Part shown: piece after piece, positions 4,700 to 18,411 of the stretch
Numbering within the stretch: the stretch's first letter is position 1
Layout: every line of letters starts with the position of its first letter
From: an uncultured Methylococcales bacterium
GTDB lineage: Bacteria; Pseudomonadota; Gammaproteobacteria; Methylococcales; Methylomonadaceae
Length of the DNA: 64,000 nucleotides
Reading direction: 5' to 3'
Assembly: GCA_913019935.1 (NCBI GenBank)
Contig: CAJVZC010000003.1
Coordinates: 1 to 64,000 of the forward strand
The notes under the pieces: model-generated
What the model was told of the DNA's origin: nothing
The model's database searches: none
The model's input: only the letters and a program-made list of their open reading frames with translations
Translations under genes and position numbers: made by a program

Positions 4700-6859
4700 T
4701 CAATCCGCCAATGCTCTTTGTAAAGCAGCCTTAACGCAACGAATAACACCGTAACTGTATGCCCCATCTAAGGCATCATAAACTCCACGCAAGGTCTGGT
4801 TCTGTTCATCAGAGGACTCTAAAATAGCGTGCTCAATCACCATTACTTCTTGTTCTGAAACAGGTACAACTTCAGTTAATTTAACCACCCCTGAAGTTAC
4901 CCCTTCAGCTAAATGTGCGTAAACCGTATCCAAAGCAATCTCTCTTCTTTGTGAAATGGCCTCAACAGTCAGACCTGCCATAAAAAAATCCAATGTTGTC
5001 ACAATTGTTTCGGTCATCCGTTTATCATCCGGCAATTTAACAAATTGCTCAATAACAGCTAGGAATTGATCGCCGTAGAGCGCCAACTTACGCTCCCCAA
5101 CACCTGATATCGCCTTAAATTGCTCATTGCTTCTAGGCAACCGGTCTTTCATCTGAACCAATGTTGCATCATGAAAAATTTGATACGGTGGGACTTTCTG
5201 AGATTCTGCGATCTCCCAGCGTTTAGCCCGCAGAGCCTCCCAGAGTCGTTTCTCACGACGCCCCACACTTCCTGAACGAAAAGTATTACCCACATAAGCT
5301 TGTGGAATCCGCTGTTCTTTTCGTAGCACCAAGGTAAGCTCACCGCGTAAAACAGGCCGACATCGTTCGGTTAATTGATAACTCCCATGCCCTTCTAAAT
5401 CAACCGTTATTAAGCCTCTAGCCAAAAGTTGCCGATAAATTGATCGCCATTGGGTTCGCGTTCTATCCACGCCTAAGCCGTACACAGAAAGCTTATTATG
5501 GCCAAAACGAGTGATCCTATCGGTTACTTTACCTTGAAGGACATCGACCAAATACTCTACGCCAAAACGTTGTCCAGTACGATAAACACAAGAGAGTGCT
5601 TGTTGCCCTGCAACGGTGCCATCCCACGTTGCTACGGGCTCTAAACAGGTATCACAATTATTACACCCCTGATGCTCAACCGGCTCACCAAAATATTCCA
5701 ATAGAACCTTACGCCGGCATTCTATTTGCTCACATAAGGCCAACATTGCATCGAGTTTATGTCGCTCAACTTGTTTTTGAACATCACCTAACGTGAGTGA
5801 CTGACTCACCATCTGACGTAGGGTCACCACATCTTGCAACCCATAGACCATCCAGGCATTCGCAGGTAAACCATCTCTCCCTGCCCGGCCGGTTTCCTGA
5901 TAATAAGATTCAATACTCTTAGGTAGATCAAGATGCGCTACAAATCTTACATTGGGTTTATCAATGCCCATGCCAAAAGCAATAGTCGCCACCATGATCA
6001 CCCCCTCTTCCCGCAAAAACCGCAATTGATTGCTCTGCCTCTCTCCAGGTAACATGCCTGCGTGATACGGTAGAGCAGTAATCCCTTGACTGGTTAAGCG
6101 ACTCGCTGTTCGCTCCACCTTCTTTCGGGATAAACAATAGATAATGCCAGAATCTCCGCGATGCTCTTGTTGAATAAAAGCCACTAATTGCTCATGGGGC
6201 TTTTGTTTTTGCAAAATTCGATAGCGAATATTCGGACGATCAAATCCCGCCTTAAAAACCTGGTCACTACCAATCGATAACCGGTCAATAATCTCCTGTT
6301 GGGTTCGAGGATCAGCTGTTGCCGTTAAAGCCATAATTGGCACCTGTGGAAAATGCTCTGCCAACCTCGATAACTGCAAATAACTTTCTCGGAAATCGTG
6401 CCCCCACTGCGACACACAATGCGCTTCATCAACAGCAAACAAGGTTACCTTAATGGTTTTGAGAATAGTCAATAACCCACCTGACAGTAACCGTTCAGGG
6501 GTAATGTAAAGTAATTGTAATTCATTACGCTGTAGCGATGCTTCTATCGACTTCGACACTACCGCTGTCTGGGTAGAATTTAACGTTTCCGCCTTAACAC
6601 CGGCCTGGTGTAGTGCAGTGACCTGGTCTTGCATCAATGCAATTAACGGCGACACAACCACACCAACCCCGCCATCAACCAAGGGAGGGATTTGATAACA
6701 CAACGACTTCCCACCACCGGTGGGCATTAGCACGAGGGAATTTTTTCCCGTCAATGTGTGAGCGATAATGGCTTCTTGAAGCCCTCGAAAACTGTCGTAG
6801 CCAAAAACAGTCTCAAGAACTAATCGTGCCTTTTCAAGATGATTATTATTTTCGGTCAC
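4700..6859 (-). CDS. recQ: ATP-dependent DNA helicase RecQ
   Basis: 719 aa; [56 protein letters not shown] and HRDC-like regions follow. Confidence 0.97.
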
Positions 6860-6966
6860 ATCAAGGTTTTTTTTAATTTGTATTTCAATCTATAATGGGC
6901 GGTCATTATAACTGTATTGCAACACATACAGACGTCCACGACCATTTTTTACAAGGATCTTGCATT

Positions 6967-8544
6967 TTGGATAATCTAACGCCAAAGCGTTTCAGCCAAT
7001 TAATCGACTCCGGCCAAGAAAAACTTATTATAGGCGGACTAAAAGGTATTGAAAAAGAAAACCTAAGATTATCCCAAACAGGTTTTATCGCTCAAACATC
7101 ACACCCCAAGGCCTTTGGAGCTGCCCTAACACACACCAGTATTACCACCGATTATTCAGAAGCCTTGATGGAGCTCATCACACCGCCTTCTGCACAAATC
7201 ACGGAGTCGTTAACTTATCTGAATAATATTCATCAATTTGTTTATGACCATCTTCCTGATGAATTTCTACTTGCCGCAAGCATGCCCTGTGGTATTGATG
7301 GTGACAAAAGTATTCCTATTGCCCAATATGGCACATCCAATATTGGTCAGATGAAACATATCTACCGCCAAGGCCTTGGCCACCGTTATGGACGAACGAT
7401 GCAGGCTATAGCCGGCATCCATTTCAATTATTCTATCCCCGAACAACTGTGGCCAACATTACAAGCCCTAAATAACAATTCACAACCTGCTCAAGACTTC
7501 ATTGCCGATCAATACTTTAATCTTATTAGAAACTTCTTAAATCAAGGCTGGTTGCTACTTTATTTATTCGGCGCCTCACCCGCCATTTGCAAGAACTTCT
7601 TTAAAGATCGCCCTTTGACCCCTAATACTTTTGAGTCTTTTGACAACCATACCTTTTATCTGCCATATGCAACGTCACTTAGAATGAGTGATATTGGCTA
7701 TAAGAGTGACAACCAAGCCGATCTGGAAATTAATTACAACAACTTAGCCGGCTATGTCAACAGTCTCACTGCGGCGATTGAAACACCTTACGCAGATTAC
7801 AAAAAAATTGGCCTTAAAAACAACGGTGAATACAAACAACTCAACACCAATATATTGCAAATAGAGAATGAATTTTATAACACGATACGTCCTAAGCAGA
7901 TTAGTGCTTCTGGTGAAAAACCTACCTTGGCATTACAACGCCGAGGTATTCAATACGTGGAAATCCGTTCGCTTGATCTTGATATTTACCACCCGAACGG
8001 AATCGATACCCATACCGCTCACTTTTTAGAAGCTTTTTTACTGACCTGCTTGTTTCAAGAAAGCCCCCAAAGCACCTCAAAACAGCAACAGATTAACAAT
8101 CAGAACTTATCAACTGTTGCTCATGAAGGACGCCGTCCTGGCTTATTACTCAATCAAAATGGCAAAAACATAACCCTCACAGAATGGGCGACTAACATCC
8201 TAGAAAGCATGGCGCCAATCTGCCAAACCTTGGACCAAGGCCAAATCGGCAGCCCGTATCAAAATGCCTTAACACAACAAATCAACTGCACCACTCAACC
8301 TGAGCAGACCCCTTCGGCTAAAATAATAGCGGATATGCAAAAAAATCAACAACCTTTTGCTCGATTTGCCATTGAACAATCACGCCTGCACGAGCGCCAT
8401 TACCGTCAACAACAACTCAGCGCTGAAGAAACTGACACCTTCACTAAAATGTCAATCTTATCAAAAAAACGTTTAGCCGAAATTGAAGCAAGTGACCGTA
8501 TAAGTTTTGATGATTTTCTGGCACAATATTTCCAACAACACTAA
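6967..8544 (+). CDS. gshA: glutamate--cysteine ligase
   Basis: [65 protein letters not shown] at 6967 (LDNLTPKRF) with AAGGA upstream looks the likelier start than ORF-track ATG 6895. Confidence 0.95.
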
Positions 8545-8563
8545 TAGATTACATACCCTCATC

Positions 8564-9286
8564 ATGATTGACACTTCACTCAACACTGCACAATTACAAA
8601 TAGAGCTGGCTGATAAATCACCTCGCGCTATTCTGAAGTATGCATTGGAACAATTTGATCACATCGCCTTGTCATTTAGTGGCGCTGAAGATGTCATTCT
8701 CATTGATATGGCACTGAATATTAAAAAAGATATTCAAGTCTTTTCACTGGACACCGGACGCCTACACCCTGAAACCTATCAATTTATTGAGCAAGTTCGC
8801 AACCATTACCAACTCAATATTGAATTATTAACGCCAGACTTTAAGACACTCGACCCTTTTGTACAGCAAAAAGGCCTGTTTAGTTTTTTTAAAGACGGCC
8901 ACCAAGAATGTTGTGGTATCAGAAAGGTCCAGCCCTTACAAAGAAAACTGCTTAACCTTGATGCTTGGATAACGGGGCAACGCATGGATCAAAGTTTAGA
9001 TACACGGCAAAATTTACCGGTACTACAAGAAGACGAAGCTTTCTCAACTCCAAATCATACCGTTATAAAATTCAATCCATTGGCCAAATGGAGCTCACAA
9101 CAAGTTTGGGATTATATCGAAGCCTATCAGGTCCCATTTAACACACTCCATAGCAAAGGTTTTGTCAGTATTGGTTGTGAACCCTGCACACGTAGCATTA
9201 CCCCTAATCAACATGAACGCAGTGGCCGTTGGTGGTGGGAAACAGATAAAAAAGAATGCGGCCTTCATGCTGGAAACCTTAAATAA
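8564..9286 (+). CDS. cysH: phosphoadenylyl/adenylyl-sulfate reductase (CysH family, Fe-S cysteine-containing)
   Basis: [56 protein letters not shown]. Start placed at ATG 8564 instead of 8507 (overlap with gshA). Confidence 0.93.
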
Positions 9287-9330
9287 AAAAATTAACGTCA
9301 CTCACCAAACCTAGCCCTCAAAGAAAAACC

Positions 9331-9705
9331 ATGTCTGATAATAACCTAACCCTTCACCACGTTAGCCTATTGGTTCAAGATACTGAAACTTCCGTGACCT
9401 TCTACCAACGGATGCTAAATCTAGAACGCATTACTCGCCCTGACTTGGAGTACCCAGGCGCGTGGTTTCAGATCGGCAACCAACAAATGCACCTTATTGA
9501 ACTCAGCAACCCTGACCCCATTACCGATCGACCTAAACACGGCGGCCATGACCGCCACGTTGCATTCACAGTCAGCAATATTGATCTCATCGTAGACAAA
9601 CTTGATAAAAATAATATTGGCTATAGCCTAAGCCGTTCAGGACGACGCGCCCTGTTCTTCCGTGACCTTGATGGCAATGCTATTGAGATTTTTGAACAAC
9701 CCTAA
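9331..9705 (+). CDS. VOC family (glyoxalase/bleomycin resistance-like) protein
   Basis: 124 aa; LHHVSLLVQDTETSVTFYQRMLNLERI ... HVAFTVSNIDLIVDKL ... LFFRDLDGNAIEIFE. Confidence 0.9.
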   Translation: MSDNNLTLHHVSLLVQDTETSVTFYQRMLNLERITRPDLEYPGAWFQIGNQQMHLIELSNPDPITDRPKHGGHDRHVAFTVSNIDLIVDKLDKNNIGYSLSRSGRRALFFRDLDGNAIEIFEQP

Positions 9706-9719
9706 ATTAAATAATGCCG

Positions 9720-9748
9720 AAAGCTGTGGCTATTCTAGCCACAACTTT
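9720..9748. terminator. bidirectional terminator-like hairpin between convergent genes
   Basis: TGTGGCTA (9725-9732) TTC TAGCCACA (9736-9743), extended by AAAG/CTTT; lies between VOC gene and bcp. Confidence 0.6.
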
Positions 9749-9769
9749 CTCTTAAACAACCCAATAACC

Positions 9770-10252
9770 TTAAGGCCGATAATGCAATTGCTGCACTCGC
9801 TCTAGAATCGCTTCAGCATGACCTTCATGATTAACGCCATAGTAAGCTTCAACTAGATCACCGGCTTTATTAATAATAAAGGTTGACCGAAGAATAGCCA
9901 TAGACGTCACACCCGCTCTTACTTTTTCTCGCCAGACATCATAATCCGCACACAACTTACCACTGACATCAGACAATAAGACAACATTTAACTTAAATTT
10001 ATTAATAAAATCCTGATGGCTTTCGCAGCTGTCTTTACTGGCCCCTAATACAACCGTATCAAAACCAGAAAATTCATTTGCCAAACGAGTAAAATCATTC
10101 GCCTCAATCGTACATCCCGGCGTATCATCTTTAGGATAAAAATATAACACCACATTACGTTTACCCTGATAATCATCAAGACTAATACTGTTACCGGCTT
10201 CATTCTCGACAGAAAATGCCGGTGCTTTTTGACCCTTTACTAACATACCCAC
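9770..10252 (-). CDS. bcp: thioredoxin-dependent peroxiredoxin (Bcp/PrxQ)
   Basis: 160 aa; LYFYPKDDTPGCTIEANDF peroxidatic Cys motif, FIINKAGDLVEAYYGVNHEGHA. Confidence 0.93.
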   Translation of the reverse strand: MGMLVKGQKAPAFSVENEAGNSISLDDYQGKRNVVLYFYPKDDTPGCTIEANDFTRLANEFSGFDTVVLGASKDSCESHQDFINKFKLNVVLLSDVSGKLCADYDVWREKVRAGVTSMAILRSTFIINKAGDLVEAYYGVNHEGHAEAILERVQQLHYRP

Positions 10253-10375
10253 CCCTTTTTGTTTTTTAAACCAACCTTTTGCAACGGTTATAGCCTCAAC
10301 CCGTTACGTTTATTTTCCTTTACTCAAAATATGCCATACCGAAATGGCAGCCTATTAATCACCTCCGAAAACTTG

Positions 10376-11056
10376 TTATAAACGCTTTAATTCTTCCACA
10401 ACACCGTCAATGCCGATATAAATAACAGAAGCTAAATCACGAAAAACACCATGCTCAATAACCCCAGGCATCGCATTTAAAGTCGTGTCTATTTGTTCAG
10501 CCGTTAACAAAGACCCAAAATCAACATCTAACACCAAATTGCCATAACTGGTAACAGCAAGCCCACTGTTATTGGCATTAGGCCTTAATACCGCTTGACC
10601 ACCGATCCCTTGTAACGCCTTCACAACCAATTGCCACGAAAAAGGAATTACCTCGACAGGAACAGGAAAACGATCACCAATCTGCCGGACACGTTTACTC
10701 TCATCAATCAAAACGATAAACTTATCAGCCGCTGTTGCTAAAATCTTCTCCCGTACCAAGTCCGCACCTTGTCCTTTAGATAAAACTAAATCATCGGTCA
10801 CCTCATCAGCACCATCGACATAATAATCAAGTTTATTCAAGTGTTCTATAGCCATCATCGGCAACCCTAATCGTTGAGCCTTTTGCATACTCACAATTGA
10901 ACTGGCAACGGTTTGCACAACCAATCCTTCTTCATGATGCCGTTGAGCCAAGGCTTCAATAAAACAATCTGCACTTGAACCGGTTCCTAACCCAACAACC
11001 ATACCCGAGCTAACTTCCATCGCCGCCTTTTTTGCCACTCGCTCTTTATCGTTCAT
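10376..11056 (-). CDS. rpiA: ribose-5-phosphate isomerase A
   Basis: VVGLGTGSSADCFIEAL, YVDGADEV, KGQGADLVREKILA. Confidence 0.96.
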   Translation of the reverse strand: MNDKERVAKKAAMEVSSGMVVGLGTGSSADCFIEALAQRHHEEGLVVQTVASSIVSMQKAQRLGLPMMAIEHLNKLDYYVDGADEVTDDLVLSKGQGADLVREKILATAADKFIVLIDESKRVRQIGDRFPVPVEVIPFSWQLVVKALQGIGGQAVLRPNANNSGLAVTSYGNLVLDVDFGSLLTAEQIDTTLNAMPGVIEHGVFRDLASVIYIGIDGVVEELKRL

Positions 11057-11092
11057 AAGTACTCCCTAAATCCATTTTGCAACAACACGCAC

Positions 11093-11887
11093 TCAAGGTT
11101 TAACTTGATATGTTTGTGAAAAGACCTTGCCATCCGTATCAATCGCTTCGGCACGTAATTCACCGGCTGACTGAGGCACAAAATAAAATCTAAAATTAGG
11201 ATCTGCACTAATCGCAATATCCGTCTTAGCCGTCAGTACCGGCTGACCATCAAACGTTACCTTTACTTTTTCCACATAATAAGCTGGACGTATAAAGCGA
11301 CTGACCTGATCCATTTGCATCCCGGTGATATTAGGGTGACTGATTAATAATTGCGCCAAATTGGGCTCATTAGACTGTACGCTACTGGGGAACTTGAATT
11401 TCATACGTCCTAATCGCTGCATCGCCGCATCTAAATCGGCTCCAATCGGGGCCGAACAACCGCCACTGGCTTTAACAAACTTTTTCACCATAACAAGTTG
11501 TCCATCATTCATTTCTGCAATAGCACGCACATAGCTGTAAGAATTAACGCGAAGACGCATAGCAACATCCGCTTTACCACTTAAGGGCGTAAAATTAAAC
11601 TCAGCAGCAAAAGGTATCGGATTCTTATCGACAATCAAGGTGATTTTTTTTATATATTTATCATCCGTCTGATTAATCTTACTGGTCACCCTAATCGGAA
11701 CCAAGGCTGCATCTTCTGCACGGTAAGGCGCCTCTATAGCAATAATATTTTCAGACTCACTAATCGCACGCCCTGAAAAAAACTGCCCCTTCAATGTGTT
11801 TTGCCAAACCGTTTCATCAACACCAGCAGAAACGACGCTAATAAAAGACACTAAACATAAACTCAGAATCACGCTAACTATTTTCAT
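11093..11887 (-). CDS. quinoprotein dehydrogenase-associated SoxYZ-like carrier protein
   Basis: 264 aa with signal peptide; SoxY-like part ending KASGGCSAPIGADLDAAMQRLG then a SoxZ-like part ISHPNITGMQMDQVSR ... YYVEKVKVTFDGQPVL; fused SoxYZ architecture. Confidence 0.85.
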   Translation of the reverse strand: MKIVSVILSLCLVSFISVVSAGVDETVWQNTLKGQFFSGRAISESENIIAIEAPYRAEDAALVPIRVTSKINQTDDKYIKKITLIVDKNPIPFAAEFNFTPLSGKADVAMRLRVNSYSYVRAIAEMNDGQLVMVKKFVKASGGCSAPIGADLDAAMQRLGRMKFKFPSSVQSNEPNLAQLLISHPNITGMQMDQVSRFIRPAYYVEKVKVTFDGQPVLTAKTDIAISADPNFRFYFVPQSAGELRAEAIDTDGKVFSQTYQVKP

Positions 11888-11905
11888 AAATAACCTCTTA
11901 TCCTA

Positions 11906-12838
11906 TTAATCTTCCCACTCTAATTCAGCAAAAACGAATGTGATATTTTTTTTATGGAAAACATCAAACAAGGCCCACTGCCCTGCTGCATTTTGACCCA
12001 CCTCAGCAATAGCTTGTTCAATAAACTTGCCCTCTTTTATCATTGCCCGCACTTCTCTCAATAACAGGGACAAATATGACTCTTGGCGTTGCAATGCAGC
12101 TCGCCAGTTAACAAGAACCGGGCCATGCCCTGGAACCACACGCTTAACCTGTAAACGTGATAACCCTTTTAATTCTTTTAACCAGCCCTTAAGACTGCCA
12201 TCAACCACAGGCAGATGCTCGACAAACAATAAATCTGATAACCATAAGGTCTGGCTATTCTCATCAAGCACAGACAAATCATTATCTGTATGAGCACTAC
12301 CGTGCGCTGTAATGGCCAATATTCTGCCCCCTAAATCCAACGTTAAAGAATCAGTCACCGCAATATCTGGCAACACTATATCTTGTAACGTTAAGTTAAT
12401 CCCTAACTGCTCCACAGCGCGTTGGGTATAAAAAATCGCTCGCGCTTGCAGAGCACGCGCAAGATTCTTATGCCCGATAAATTGCACACCGTTCTCTTTA
12501 AAACTACGATTGCCAAAAATATGATCAGGGTGTACATGGCTATTTATGACATAACAAATCGGCACGTCAGTAATTTTCTCAATCGCCTCTTTCAGTAAAC
12601 GACCTTGCTCTCGATTACCCCCTGAATCCAAAACGGCGACACATTGCTTACCAACCACAAAGCCGATATTAGCTATTGCACCATGATTGGTTCGATTAGG
12701 TAACTCATGGTTGCCTAAATGAAAATATAATCCTGGCGCGACCTTCTGTACTGTAAAAGCCTCCTTTATCTTGGCTTGGCACTGCACTGTGAAAAAACCC
12801 ACCCATAGGCTTAAACTGACTACCCAAAAAGATTTCAT
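11906..12838 (-). CDS. quinoprotein relay system zinc metallohydrolase (SoxH-like MBL fold)
   Basis: 310 aa, N-terminal signal; VINSHVHPDHIFGNRSF, HGSAHTDNDLSV, WLSDLLFVEHLPVVDGSLKGWL, VVPGHGPV. Confidence 0.85.
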   Translation of the reverse strand: MKSFWVVSLSLWVGFFTVQCQAKIKEAFTVQKVAPGLYFHLGNHELPNRTNHGAIANIGFVVGKQCVAVLDSGGNREQGRLLKEAIEKITDVPICYVINSHVHPDHIFGNRSFKENGVQFIGHKNLARALQARAIFYTQRAVEQLGINLTLQDIVLPDIAVTDSLTLDLGGRILAITAHGSAHTDNDLSVLDENSQTLWLSDLLFVEHLPVVDGSLKGWLKELKGLSRLQVKRVVPGHGPVLVNWRAALQRQESYLSLLLREVRAMIKEGKFIEQAIAEVGQNAAGQWALFDVFHKKNITFVFAELEWED

Positions 12839-13740
12839 TTCGAACCACTCTCCTTTTGATCACACAATTCTAAAAAAGCTTTCACTGCACGCGACTGAAT
12901 AGCGACTTTCGGCGCAATAATATTCAAATGCCACAACAACCCACTGGTTGAATTTAACCGACGAGCCACTAATCCTTCGCGCTCATAACGCAAAGCCTGA
13001 GAAGAAGAAAAACCAATGCCTAATCCGGCTCTCACAGCCTCTTTAATACCCGAAACACCCATGACTTCTATATTAACAGGAATCTCCAATTTCGCTTTTG
13101 CTAACGCTCTTTCTAAAACCTGACGCGCTCCTGATTCAGGCTCACGCCAAATCACTGGGTAATTAAGTAACGCATGCAGCGGAACCGACTCAGAATACAG
13201 ATAGGAAAGCTCATGACCTTCCGGTAAGACCAACACAATTTCATCCTCTTGCCACGGTATTAATTGATAATTCTTAGGCAATAATTCTCGATCAATCGGT
13301 CCTTCAATAAAACCTAAATCGAGACTACTCAGATTTTTCAGGATTTCATGGGTATTTCCCGTTTTCATAAAGACTTGTACACCGTGATGCAGTGTTTGTA
13401 ATTGCACAACATATTTAGGTAGATAAAAGCTAGCTATGGTCATGGTTGAACCAATCCGAAGTGTCCCTGCATTGATTTCCTGCAAACAACGAACAAATTC
13501 ATTGGCTTCACTAAAGCTTTTCTCAAAATTATTCGCATGCTCTAACAAACTCTCCCCGGCCGGCGTTAAGACAATACGGTGCCCCTCACGCTCATATAAC
13601 GGTTCACCCACAGCACCTTGCAATAATTTCAATTGCCCTGATACCGCCGGCTGACCAATATTTAACGCCTGTGCTGCCCGAGTTATACTACAAAACTTGG
13701 CGACGACACAAAAAGTCAGTAAATGCTGTGGATTCAACAT
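12835..13740 (-). CDS. LysR family transcriptional regulator
   Basis: LNPQHLLTFCVVAKFCSITRAAQALNIGQPAVSGQLKLLQGAVGEPLYEREG HTH; divergent from the formate dehydrogenase genes. Confidence 0.93.
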   Translation of the reverse strand: MLNPQHLLTFCVVAKFCSITRAAQALNIGQPAVSGQLKLLQGAVGEPLYEREGHRIVLTPAGESLLEHANNFEKSFSEANEFVRCLQEINAGTLRIGSTMTIASFYLPKYVVQLQTLHHGVQVFMKTGNTHEILKNLSSLDLGFIEGPIDRELLPKNYQLIPWQEDEIVLVLPEGHELSYLYSESVPLHALLNYPVIWREPESGARQVLERALAKAKLEIPVNIEVMGVSGIKEAVRAGLGIGFSSSQALRYEREGLVARRLNSTSGLLWHLNIIAPKVAIQSRAVKAFLELCDQKESGSK

Positions 13741-13791: not shown

Positions 13792-13808
13792 TATCATTTT
13801 TAATGATA
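13792..13808. promoter_or_regulatory. candidate LysR box (ATC-N9-GAT palindrome)
   Basis: TATCATT TTT AATGATA perfect 7-bp arms in the 182-bp LysR/fds divergent intergenic region. Confidence 0.6.
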
Positions 13809-15639: not shown

Positions 15640-18411
15640 ATGGCCGCTAACCCAGAAACTACAAAAAACACCATAACCTTCTCTCTGGACGGGGACAATA
15701 TAGAAGCCGCTGCCGATGAAACCATTCTCGAGGCGGCAAAAAGACACGGCAAAGAAATTCCCCATCTGTGTTACAAAGAAGGCCTAAGAGCGGATGGAAA
15801 CTGTCGTGCTTGCGTGGTTGAAATCGAAGGAGAACGTGTTTTAGCACCCTCTTGCTGTAGAGCGCCTACTGAAAACATGCAAGTCAAAAGCCAGAGTGAA
15901 CGAGCACTGAAATCACAAAAAATGGTTCTTGAACTATTACTATCAGATATGCCGGAGCAGGGCCCCTCCCCGTACAAAAAAGATTCAGAGTTAGACCTCT
16001 GGGCTAATAAATTAGCCCTTTCAACCCCCAGATTTCCCAGCCGCGCACAACCCAAAGCAGACACCTCACACCCCGCTATGGCGGTGAACTTAGATGCTTG
16101 TATTCAATGTACACGCTGCGTTAGGGCTTGCCGTGAAGAACAAATGAATGATGTTATTGGCTACGCCAACCGTGGCAAACATTCTGAAATTGTCTTTGAT
16201 ATTGGAGACCCCATGGGCGCCAGTAGTTGTGTGGGTTGCGGTGAATGTGTTCAGGCCTGCCCTACCGGTGCCCTGATGCCGGCTCATAATGTTGGTCTAG
16301 AAACAATCGACAAGACTGTTGATTCAACTTGCCCGTATTGCGGCGTCGGTTGCTTAATCAAATACCATGTCAAAGACAATAAAATCATGTACACCGAAGG
16401 TCGAGACGGTTACACCAATCACCACCGGTTATGCGTTAAAGGTCGTTTCGGATTTAATTATATTGATAACCCTCTGCGACTAACAACCCCACTCATCCGA
16501 CGTGAAGGCGTTGCTAAAAGCACCGAACTTCTGGATCCCGATAATATTAATGACGTCTTTCGCGAAGCCAGCTGGGAAGAAGCTCTGGATTTTGCCGCCC
16601 ATGGTTTTTTATCTATCCGCGACAATATCGGCAATAATGCTTTAGCAGGACTGGGTTCAGCCAAAGGCAGTAATGAAGAAGCTTATCTGTTTCAAAAACT
16701 GATTAGAACTGGATTTGGCTCAAACAATGTCGACCATTGCACCCGACTTTGCCATGCATCATCGGTTGTCGCCTTATTAGAATGTCTTGGCAGTGGCGCG
16801 GTTTCAAACCCTGTATCCGATGTTAGCGATGCCGAAGTTATCATCATTATTGGCTCAAATCCAACGGTCAATCACCCCGTTGGCGCCACCTTTATGAAGA
16901 ATGCCAGTAAAAAGGGCACAAAAATAATCTTAATCGATCCGGCCAAAACCGATATCGCCAAATACGCGTCTTATTCTTTACAGTTTAGACCTGATACCGA
17001 TGTCGCCTTACTCAATGCCATGATGTATACCATTTTGGAAGAGCAACTCCAAGATAATGATTATATTCATGCCCACACTGAGAATTTTGAGGTTATGAGC
17101 GATCATGTCGCCGATTACAGCCCTGAAAAGGTGGCCCCAATCTGCGGCATTGATGCCGAAACCATTCGAGAAGTTTCCAGACTCTACGCTAAATCTAAGG
17201 CCTCTATGATTTTATGGGGCATGGGTGTTTCTCAACATATCCATGGAACCGATAATGCACGTTGCCTGATTTCACTGGCCTTAATGACTGGCCAAATAGG
17301 AAGACCTGGCACCGGCCTACACCCTCTTAGAGGTCAAAACAACGTCCAAGGCGCTTCCGATGTCGGCCTTATTCCGATGGTTTTTCCTGATTACCTCCCC
17401 GTTAGCGACCCTGAAAATCGCATAAAATTTGAAAAACTGTGGCAAACACCACTCAGTGCCGACGCTGGCCTCACGACCGTAGAAATGATTCATGAAATCC
17501 TCCATGGTAATGTTCACGGCATGTATGTTGAAGGTGAAAATCCAGCAATGTCTGATCCGAATCAGAACCATGCCAGAAAAGCCTTTGCAGCCCTCAATCA
17601 TTTAGTTGTTCAGGATATTTTTCTCACTGAGACCGCCGGCTTTGCAGATGTTATCTTGCCTGCTTCGGCTTTCTACGAAAAAAATGGCACTTTTTCCAAC
17701 ACTGATCGACGCGTTCAGATGGGCCGCCAAGCCGTTACGCCACCGGGTCAAGCCAAACAAGACCTCTGGATTATTCAAGAAATAGCCAACCGAATGGGCC
17801 TGAACTGGAATTATCAGGGTCCTGAAGATGTATTCAATGAAATGCGATTAGCTATGGACAGTATTGCAGGAATGACTTGGGATCGTCTACAACGGGAAGA
17901 CTCACTAACTTACCCTCTTGAGCAGGAAGGTGACCCTGGACAGCCTATTATTTTTACTGATGGATTTCCAACCGTTACCGGCCGAGGAAAATTTGTCCCC
18001 GCATCCTACACGCAGGCCGATGAACTCCCTGATGAACACTTCCCTTTTATTTTTATTACCGGCCGACAACTAGAGCACTGGCATACCGGCAGCATGACCC
18101 GCCATTCAGAAACATTAAATGCCTTAGAACCCGATCCTGTTGCTTCGATTCACCCTGAAGACCTAGAAAAATTAGGCATTAAAGCTGGAGAGATCATTAC
18201 TTTAGAATCAAAGCGGGGAAAATTGTCCGCCTATGCCAGAGCAGAAACAAGTATCCAGAAAGGAACTATTTTTATGGCTTTTTGCTATAACGAGGCTAGC
18301 GCCAACCTACTCACTAATGAGGCCCTCGACCCCGCAGCTAAAATACCAGAATTCAAATTTTGTGCCATTAAAGCTTATTCAGGCACCCAAATAGACACCC
18401 GAATTCATTAG
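15640..18411 (+). CDS. formate dehydrogenase alpha (catalytic, molybdopterin) subunit with N-terminal Fe-S domains
   Basis: 923 aa; 2Fe-2S domain IPHLCYKEGLRADGNCRACVVEI, 4Fe-4S CIQCTRCVRAC / CVGCGECVQACP, STCPYCGVGC, VDHCTRLCHASSV (Cys rather than Sec), GMGVSQHIHGTDN. Confidence 0.95.
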   Translation: MAANPETTKNTITFSLDGDNIEAAADETILEAAKRHGKEIPHLCYKEGLRADGNCRACVVEIEGERVLAPSCCRAPTENMQVKSQSERALKSQKMVLELLLSDMPEQGPSPYKKDSELDLWANKLALSTPRFPSRAQPKADTSHPAMAVNLDACIQCTRCVRACREEQMNDVIGYANRGKHSEIVFDIGDPMGASSCVGCGECVQACPTGALMPAHNVGLETIDKTVDSTCPYCGVGCLIKYHVKDNKIMYTEGRDGYTNHHRLCVKGRFGFNYIDNPLRLTTPLIRREGVAKSTELLDPDNINDVFREASWEEALDFAAHGFLSIRDNIGNNALAGLGSAKGSNEEAYLFQKLIRTGFGSNNVDHCTRLCHASSVVALLECLGSGAVSNPVSDVSDAEVIIIIGSNPTVNHPVGATFMKNASKKGTKIILIDPAKTDIAKYASYSLQFRPDTDVALLNAMMYTILEEQLQDNDYIHAHTENFEVMSDHVADYSPEKVAPICGIDAETIREVSRLYAKSKASMILWGMGVSQHIHGTDNARCLISLALMTGQIGRPGTGLHPLRGQNNVQGASDVGLIPMVFPDYLPVSDPENRIKFEKLWQTPLSADAGLTTVEMIHEILHGNVHGMYVEGENPAMSDPNQNHARKAFAALNHLVVQDIFLTETAGFADVILPASAFYEKNGTFSNTDRRVQMGRQAVTPPGQAKQDLWIIQEIANRMGLNWNYQGPEDVFNEMRLAMDSIAGMTWDRLQREDSLTYPLEQEGDPGQPIIFTDGFPTVTGRGKFVPASYTQADELPDEHFPFIFITGRQLEHWHTGSMTRHSETLNALEPDPVASIHPEDLEKLGIKAGEIITLESKRGKLSAYARAETSIQKGTIFMAFCYNEASANLLTNEALDPAAKIPEFKFCAIKAYSGTQIDTRIH

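Follow-up and report, generated by a model that had tools for sequence, protein, structure and literature searches.

A 2024 study described SoxYZ-S4 fusion genes that cluster with fdhAB and xoxF, near soxH and with conserved synteny, and suggested for these clusters a role in carbon instead of sulfur metabolism (PMC11237559). Published proposals for the function of such genes include the shielding of PQQ from sulfur nucleophiles and a part in maturation or redox control (PMC12997753; PMC11237559). In H. denitrificans, the ensemble of pmpAB, a SoxYZ fusion and SoxH has been interpreted as working in the PQQ-dependent catabolism of alcohols (PMC11582611). The original prediction for the locus analyzed here had stated that the substrate of neither the carrier nor the hydrolase family is established, and we uphold this statement.

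The locus lies in a 64,000-nucleotide stretch of a contig from an uncultured Methylococcales bacterium, hereafter the window (Table 1). The coordinates given in the original prediction for the LysR, SoxH-like, SoxYZ-like, rpiA and fds reading frames are exact. By the positions of their reading frames, LysR, soxH and soxYZ form a tight operon on the minus strand, divergent from fdsGB-fdsA, and family matches identify the fds genes as a soluble NAD-type formate dehydrogenase. The predicted 4-bp ATGA overlap between the LysR gene and soxH (...TTCGAAATGAAATCT...) is present, with the same 4-bp overlap found in two genus mates. None of the NCBIfam LysR equivalogs reaches its cut-off with the window LysR, whose orthologues occupy the same position in relatives at 56-98% identity. 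In our reading, the operon probably represents the accessory module already known from lanthanide-type PQQ alcohol dehydrogenases, in this case XoxF, and would share its LysR with formate dehydrogenase.

Table 1. Features of the operon and of its neighbors in the window.
Feature	Positions	Strand	Basis or remark
rpiA, directly downstream of the carrier gene	10376-11056	-	NF001924 over cut-off
Fused SoxY-SoxZ-like carrier, 264 aa	11093-11887	-	TIGR04557; SoxY and SoxZ Pfam domains
Cys144 codon (GGC-SAP), linker between SoxY and SoxZ parts	11456-11458	-	
SoxH-like dinuclear metallohydrolase (quinoprotein relay system zinc metallohydrolase 2), 310 aa	11906-12838	-	TIGR04559
HVHPDH metal-binding motif, residues 101-106 of the hydrolase	12521-12538	-	
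LysR-type regulator, 301 aa	12835-13740	-	First gene of operon; HTH_1 and LysR_substrate well over cut-off
Candidate LysR box ATCATTTTTAATGAT, palindrome, T-N11-A, between LysR and fdsGB	13793-13807		Conserved
FdsG(NuoE)-like and FdsB(NuoF)-like fusion, formate dehydrogenase subunit, 566 aa	13923-15623	+	Family searches
FdsA, formate dehydrogenase alpha subunit	15640-18411	+	TIGR01591, 752 bits (cut-off 666)

A comparison of loci across relatives finds rpiA next to the carrier gene in the window's genus only. We therefore rejected this genus-specific neighbor as a component of the system, outside which it probably lies. Elsewhere in the window, positions 6895-9286 hold a glutamate-cysteine ligase-like ORF (549 aa) and then a CysH-like sulfate reductase ORF, both named by reading the sequence; the pair also occurs in three genus mates.

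The predicted assignment of carrier and hydrolase to the NCBIfam "quinoprotein relay" families holds, both scoring over the respective cut-offs. The carrier matches TIGR04557 (quinoprotein dehydrogenase-associated SoxYZ-like carrier) over model positions 1-225 of 226 with 284.5 bits, against a cut-off of 140, and the hydrolase reaches 394.8 bits against a cut-off of 280. The cysteine proposed as the carrier residue is intact, the residues G142-G143-C144-S145-A146 being invariant in 48 carriers, and the alignment of the carrier with Paracoccus SoxY stops matching at the common GGC. In the AlphaFold2 model (pLDDT 89.5), a SoxY-like and a SoxZ-like beta domain are joined by a linker, and a fold search matched these parts to the Paracoccus SoxY and SoxZ structures 2ox5/2oxg/2oxh. 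Cys144 falls in the lowest-confidence block of the model, a block that is probably mobile. Two loci carry a second carrier gene each (~40% identical to that of the window) together with a second SoxH-like gene, perhaps reflecting two subtypes, and at five loci from members of the window's family the carrier gene occurs without soxH in the 20-kb locus, soxH being located elsewhere in the genome.

The metal site of the hydrolase is likewise intact, as predicted: H101, H103, D105, H106, H183, D202 and H238 show no variation across 40 hydrolases and provide, as far as the sequence predicts, the complete set of seven ligands that a dinuclear site calls for. The AlphaFold2 model (pLDDT 94) has a metallo-beta-lactamase fold whose nearest neighbors are the chlorothalonil dehalogenase 6uxu and B1/B2 metallo-beta-lactamases. 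Two further residues beyond the metal ligands, Cys66 and Cys95, are also invariant, and a disulfide or redox role is possible for them. Carrier and hydrolase both begin with a hydrophobic stretch, suggesting that the two proteins are exported to the periplasm.

In 61 relatives, the carrier is paired with SoxH in a nearly one-to-one ratio. For the dehydrogenases, we surveyed 377 genomes drawn evenly from the class, leaving out that of the window. A PQQ alcohol dehydrogenase of the TIGR03075 family is found in 43 of the 44 carrier genomes and in 24 of the 332 others (Fisher p 5e-38, ignoring shared ancestry). The carrier match of the single exception (G348) is a read-through of apparently separate soxY and soxZ genes. 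An Asp located two residues past a conserved metal-ligand Asp is the mark of lanthanide enzymes such as XoxF and PedH. This residue, called from the best reading frame against XoxF and by alignment, is present in 42/43 carrier genomes compared to 8/24 PQQ genomes without a carrier (p 9e-9, again ignoring shared ancestry). Carrier and dehydrogenase lie within 5 kb of each other in at least 27 of the 43 genomes, a lower bound with three dehydrogenase candidates scored per genome. Among the sampled carrier genomes, G398 alone has no lanthanide Asp in its scored PQQ dehydrogenases. The original prediction had named a random genomic distribution relative to PQQ dehydrogenases as counting against it; we found the opposite, a tight tie to the lanthanide type.

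The lanthanide bias of the co-occurring dehydrogenases would also be expected if the pair helped to form the adjacent-cysteine disulfide of these enzymes or to insert their cofactor. In Phyllobacterium, homologues are accompanied by thioredoxin-family, CXXCW and pqq genes, and in other bacteria they lie close to genes for thioredoxin-like and rhodanese proteins (PMC12997753), consistent with such a role in maturation. However, most PQQ dehydrogenases of module-free genomes have the adjacent Cys pair as well, and maturation leaves the full dinuclear metal site of the hydrolase unexplained. We regard this explanation as unlikely.

Given the SoxY fold and the GGC cysteine of the carrier, the pair could instead act on sulfur, the carrier stripping PQQ or XoxF of thiosulfate, sulfite or persulfide groups, which SoxH would then release; methanol oxidation could thereby survive in sulfidic or thiosulfate-rich water. 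Thiosulfate inhibits the use of methanol and not of formate in Hyphomicrobium, and a role of this kind has been proposed (PMC12997753; PMC11237559). Genus mates with soxXYZA and soxB probably meet thiosulfate. Against this explanation, the H. denitrificans pmpAB genes, near a SoxYZ fusion and SoxH, show no thiosulfate response (PMC11582611), and a lanthanide bias is not expected from a general protection of PQQ. SoxA, moreover, has no association with the carrier across the class (18/43 versus 148/333, p 0.87, ignoring shared ancestry), which weakens a dedicated thiosulfate role. On balance, protection from sulfur is possible but doubtful. SoxA had seemed enriched among carrier genomes of the window's own family; with the class-wide result, we rejected a tie of the module to canonical Sox and attribute this enrichment to a lineage effect. 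The near-exclusive tie of the carrier to lanthanide-type PQQ dehydrogenases throughout the class, without a SoxA association, is new, as is the conserved T-N11-A box between LysR and fds.

Canonical sox genes do occur in the clade. Four genus-mate loci contain soxX-soxY-soxZ-soxA followed by a moeA-like gene, and Methylotuvimicrobium buryatense has a locus of canonical sox genes without a soxX match there; soxB is located elsewhere in both cases. These gene sets suggest a capacity for thiosulfate oxidation in the methane oxidizers of this clade.

The original prediction had drawn attention to the lack of a quinoprotein or cytochrome nearby. Indeed, the window contains no PQQ dehydrogenase, adjacent to the pair or otherwise, and none of its ORFs of at least 80 aa has a CXXCH motif; elsewhere, adjacency of the pair to such an enzyme is common, not universal. 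Nor was a PQQ alcohol dehydrogenase found in the window's assembly (1.02 Mb, 65.55% complete). The nearest named relatives are the Methylococcales bacteria OPU3_GD_OMZ and ETNP20_MAG_37, by their names from marine oxygen-minimum zones, and UWMA-0325 and UWMA-0047. The methane monooxygenase family PF02461 is present in three of four genus mates and fae in the window's own assembly. The organism is thus very probably a methanotroph, and as such would be expected to possess a PQQ methanol dehydrogenase.

Each of the four genus mates yields a strong PQQ-dehydrogenase match, located on another contig. In one of them (G001), the enzyme scores 738 bits with TIGR03075 (methanol/ethanol type); the next gene encodes a XoxJ-like periplasmic binding protein, and the surrounding genes, named by reading their translations, include infB, nusA, rbfA, truB, rpsO and pnp. 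This genus mate is 95% identical in DNA to the window over 14 kb, and yet its 18.5-kb xoxF region has no match in the window's assembly anywhere along its length. A real absence of core genes like infB and rpsO is impossible. Since they are missing along with the xoxF region, a gap in the assembly is the best explanation for the lack of xoxF, which in an assembly of this completeness is uninformative about the organism. We therefore rejected a true lack of the quinoprotein.

The same observations bear on the idea that the pair has left PQQ dehydrogenases in the window's lineage and works with formate dehydrogenase alone. The idea draws on the failure to find a quinoprotein dehydrogenase in window or assembly. 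It is contradicted by the enzymes of all four genus mates, by a missing region that, with infB, nusA, rpsO and pnp in it, does not represent true gene loss, and by the close identity of the window to the very genus mate whose xoxF region is missing here. In sister lineages, xoxF stands beside fds and the module. Such a detachment, as implied by the original prediction, is highly improbable.

Comparison with relatives shows the window to be one fragment of a larger cluster. The divergent arrangement of LysR-soxH-soxYZ and fdsGB-fdsA is shared by the window's genus and found at seven loci across several genera of the family, while two more loci lack LysR and have soxH-soxYZ facing fds. In other families of the order, two loci combine fdsGB-fdsA-xoxF with LysR-soxYZ, one carries fds, xoxF, soxYZ and soxH in one row, and at five xoxF is divergent from soxH-soxYZ. 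Methylocaldum sp. 14B has a contiguous xoxJ-xoxF-fdsA-fdsGB / LysR-soxH-soxYZ cluster. The predicted link with formate oxidation thus recurs across the family and the order, and again in a betaproteobacterium. The FdsG-like/FdsB-like fusion is kept in relatives. In that betaproteobacterium (UBA6910), outside the window's order, positions 6403-13044 of the locus hold soxH, soxYZ and a second soxH-like gene, followed by fdsGB-fdsA.

The regulator offers a second link. The motif ATCA-N7-TGAT, as in the candidate box between LysR and fdsGB, is present in 22/24 complete LysR upstream regions, several of which are copies of one genome, compared to 94/4800 (2%) random windows of the same loci. The divergent position and the conserved box support a shared control of module and formate dehydrogenase by LysR, as judged from sequence, and fit the co-regulation with formate oxidation that had been predicted. 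Upstream of xoxF, none of the loci examined was found to have such a box. A LysR box at xoxF promoters was accordingly rejected, and regulation of xoxF by the window LysR is not supported.

The link to formate dehydrogenase, seen in much of the family, in the betaproteobacterial locus and in the published Thiodiazotropha and Bathymodiolus-symbiont clusters (PMC11237559), raises the possibility of a periplasmic relay of C1 groups. Cys144 would bind formaldehyde as a hydroxymethyl thiol, XoxF would oxidize it to an S-formyl thioester, SoxH would release formate and Fds would oxidize the formate. The strict tie of the module to alcohol dehydrogenases and a weak resemblance in sequence between SoxH and the thioesterase PqsE are in line with this route. 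On the other hand, fds is present in only 14 of the 80 carrier loci within the stretch covered, some loci being short, and the hydrolase is structurally closest to a dehalogenase and beta-lactamases and not to glyoxalase II. No export signal is apparent in the Fds proteins, and the route would therefore require formate to pass through the membrane. The presence of fae makes such a relay unneeded for formaldehyde disposal, a point that also weighs on the accessory-module reading. As a complete route, the relay is a tentative proposal that we consider somewhat unlikely. A more specific version, in which the SoxYZ-like protein would be a protein-borne periplasmic counterpart of glutathione for XoxF, with an S-formyl route and LysR matching formate dehydrogenase expression to flux, is speculative and less likely still.

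Returning to the accessory module of XoxF, we propose the following mechanism. The module would be placed by the NAD-type formate dehydrogenase so that both share LysR, formate oxidation being the last step from methanol to CO2, and LysR on the T-N11-A box would control both directions. In the periplasm, Cys144 on its mobile linker would capture a small adduct that forms at XoxF or endangers it, and the SoxH-like enzyme, in view of its fold and conserved residues, would hydrolyze this adduct off the cysteine. We tentatively put forward a C1 group such as S-hydroxymethyl or S-formyl as the adduct, slightly ahead of a sulfur group that would poison PQQ, itself a possible though doubtful candidate; that there is no adduct at all and the module matures XoxF seems unlikely. 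The formate dehydrogenase linkage favors the C1 role, but it is no proof of it, since formate oxidation follows methanol oxidation under any of these hypotheses.

Several observations count against the accessory-module reading. Transposon disruption of the P. putida homologues had minimal effects, though without lanthanides (PMC12997753), and the main text on a lanthanide transposon screen of M. extorquens makes no mention of the homologues (PMC7391723). Eight genomes have a lanthanide-type enzyme and no module, and G398 represents the reverse among its scored enzymes. The lack of a LysR box upstream of xoxF in the loci examined points in the same direction.

Both families are widespread beside lanthanide-type methanol/alcohol dehydrogenases, and the tie to this type, with no tie to thiosulfate oxidation, narrows the question of the module's job. 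The same arrangement is present in the culturable M. buryatense, which offers a tractable host. Should the carrier prove to hold a C1 group, this would add a further way of handling formaldehyde besides the glutathione and methanopterin routes.

Set against the described systems, the arrangement is a known accessory module and is largely explained. The term under-described system, used in the original prediction, remains apt for the biochemistry and not for the clustering, the association of xoxF, fdhAB, soxH and soxYZ having already been published (PMC11237559). With the canonical SoxYZ thiosulfate carrier, the window protein has in common the SoxY/SoxZ folds and the GGC cysteine. Unlike it, the window carrier is fused, has its cysteine internally (GGCSAP, with no C-terminal GGCGG) and lacks adjacent soxXAB, no sox genes being recognized next to it; its SoxY_true score of 82 bits lies below the cut-off of 125. 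Genus mates possess a separate canonical soxXYZA besides the SoxYZ-like carrier.

In P. putida, PP_2677/PP_2678 of the ped cluster belong to the same two annotated families and stand beside the lanthanide-dependent quinoprotein PedH (PMC12997753). Unlike the window, the ped cluster comprises broad-range alcohol dehydrogenases, and formate dehydrogenase is not listed in it (PMC12997753). Methylocaldum sp. 14B has the LysR-soxH-soxYZ operon divergent from fdsGB-fdsA as in the window, but xoxF-xoxJ directly follow fdsA, and the ATCA-N7-TGAT box was not found there. Compared to the SoxYZ-S4 clusters, the window has no adjacent xoxF, which is located elsewhere in the genus mates, and its LysR gene overlaps soxH (PMC11237559). 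Fused SoxYZ, soxH and formate dehydrogenase occur together, as in the window, in Thiodiazotropha, the Kuphus symbiont and the methanotrophic symbionts of Bathymodiolus (PMC11237559).
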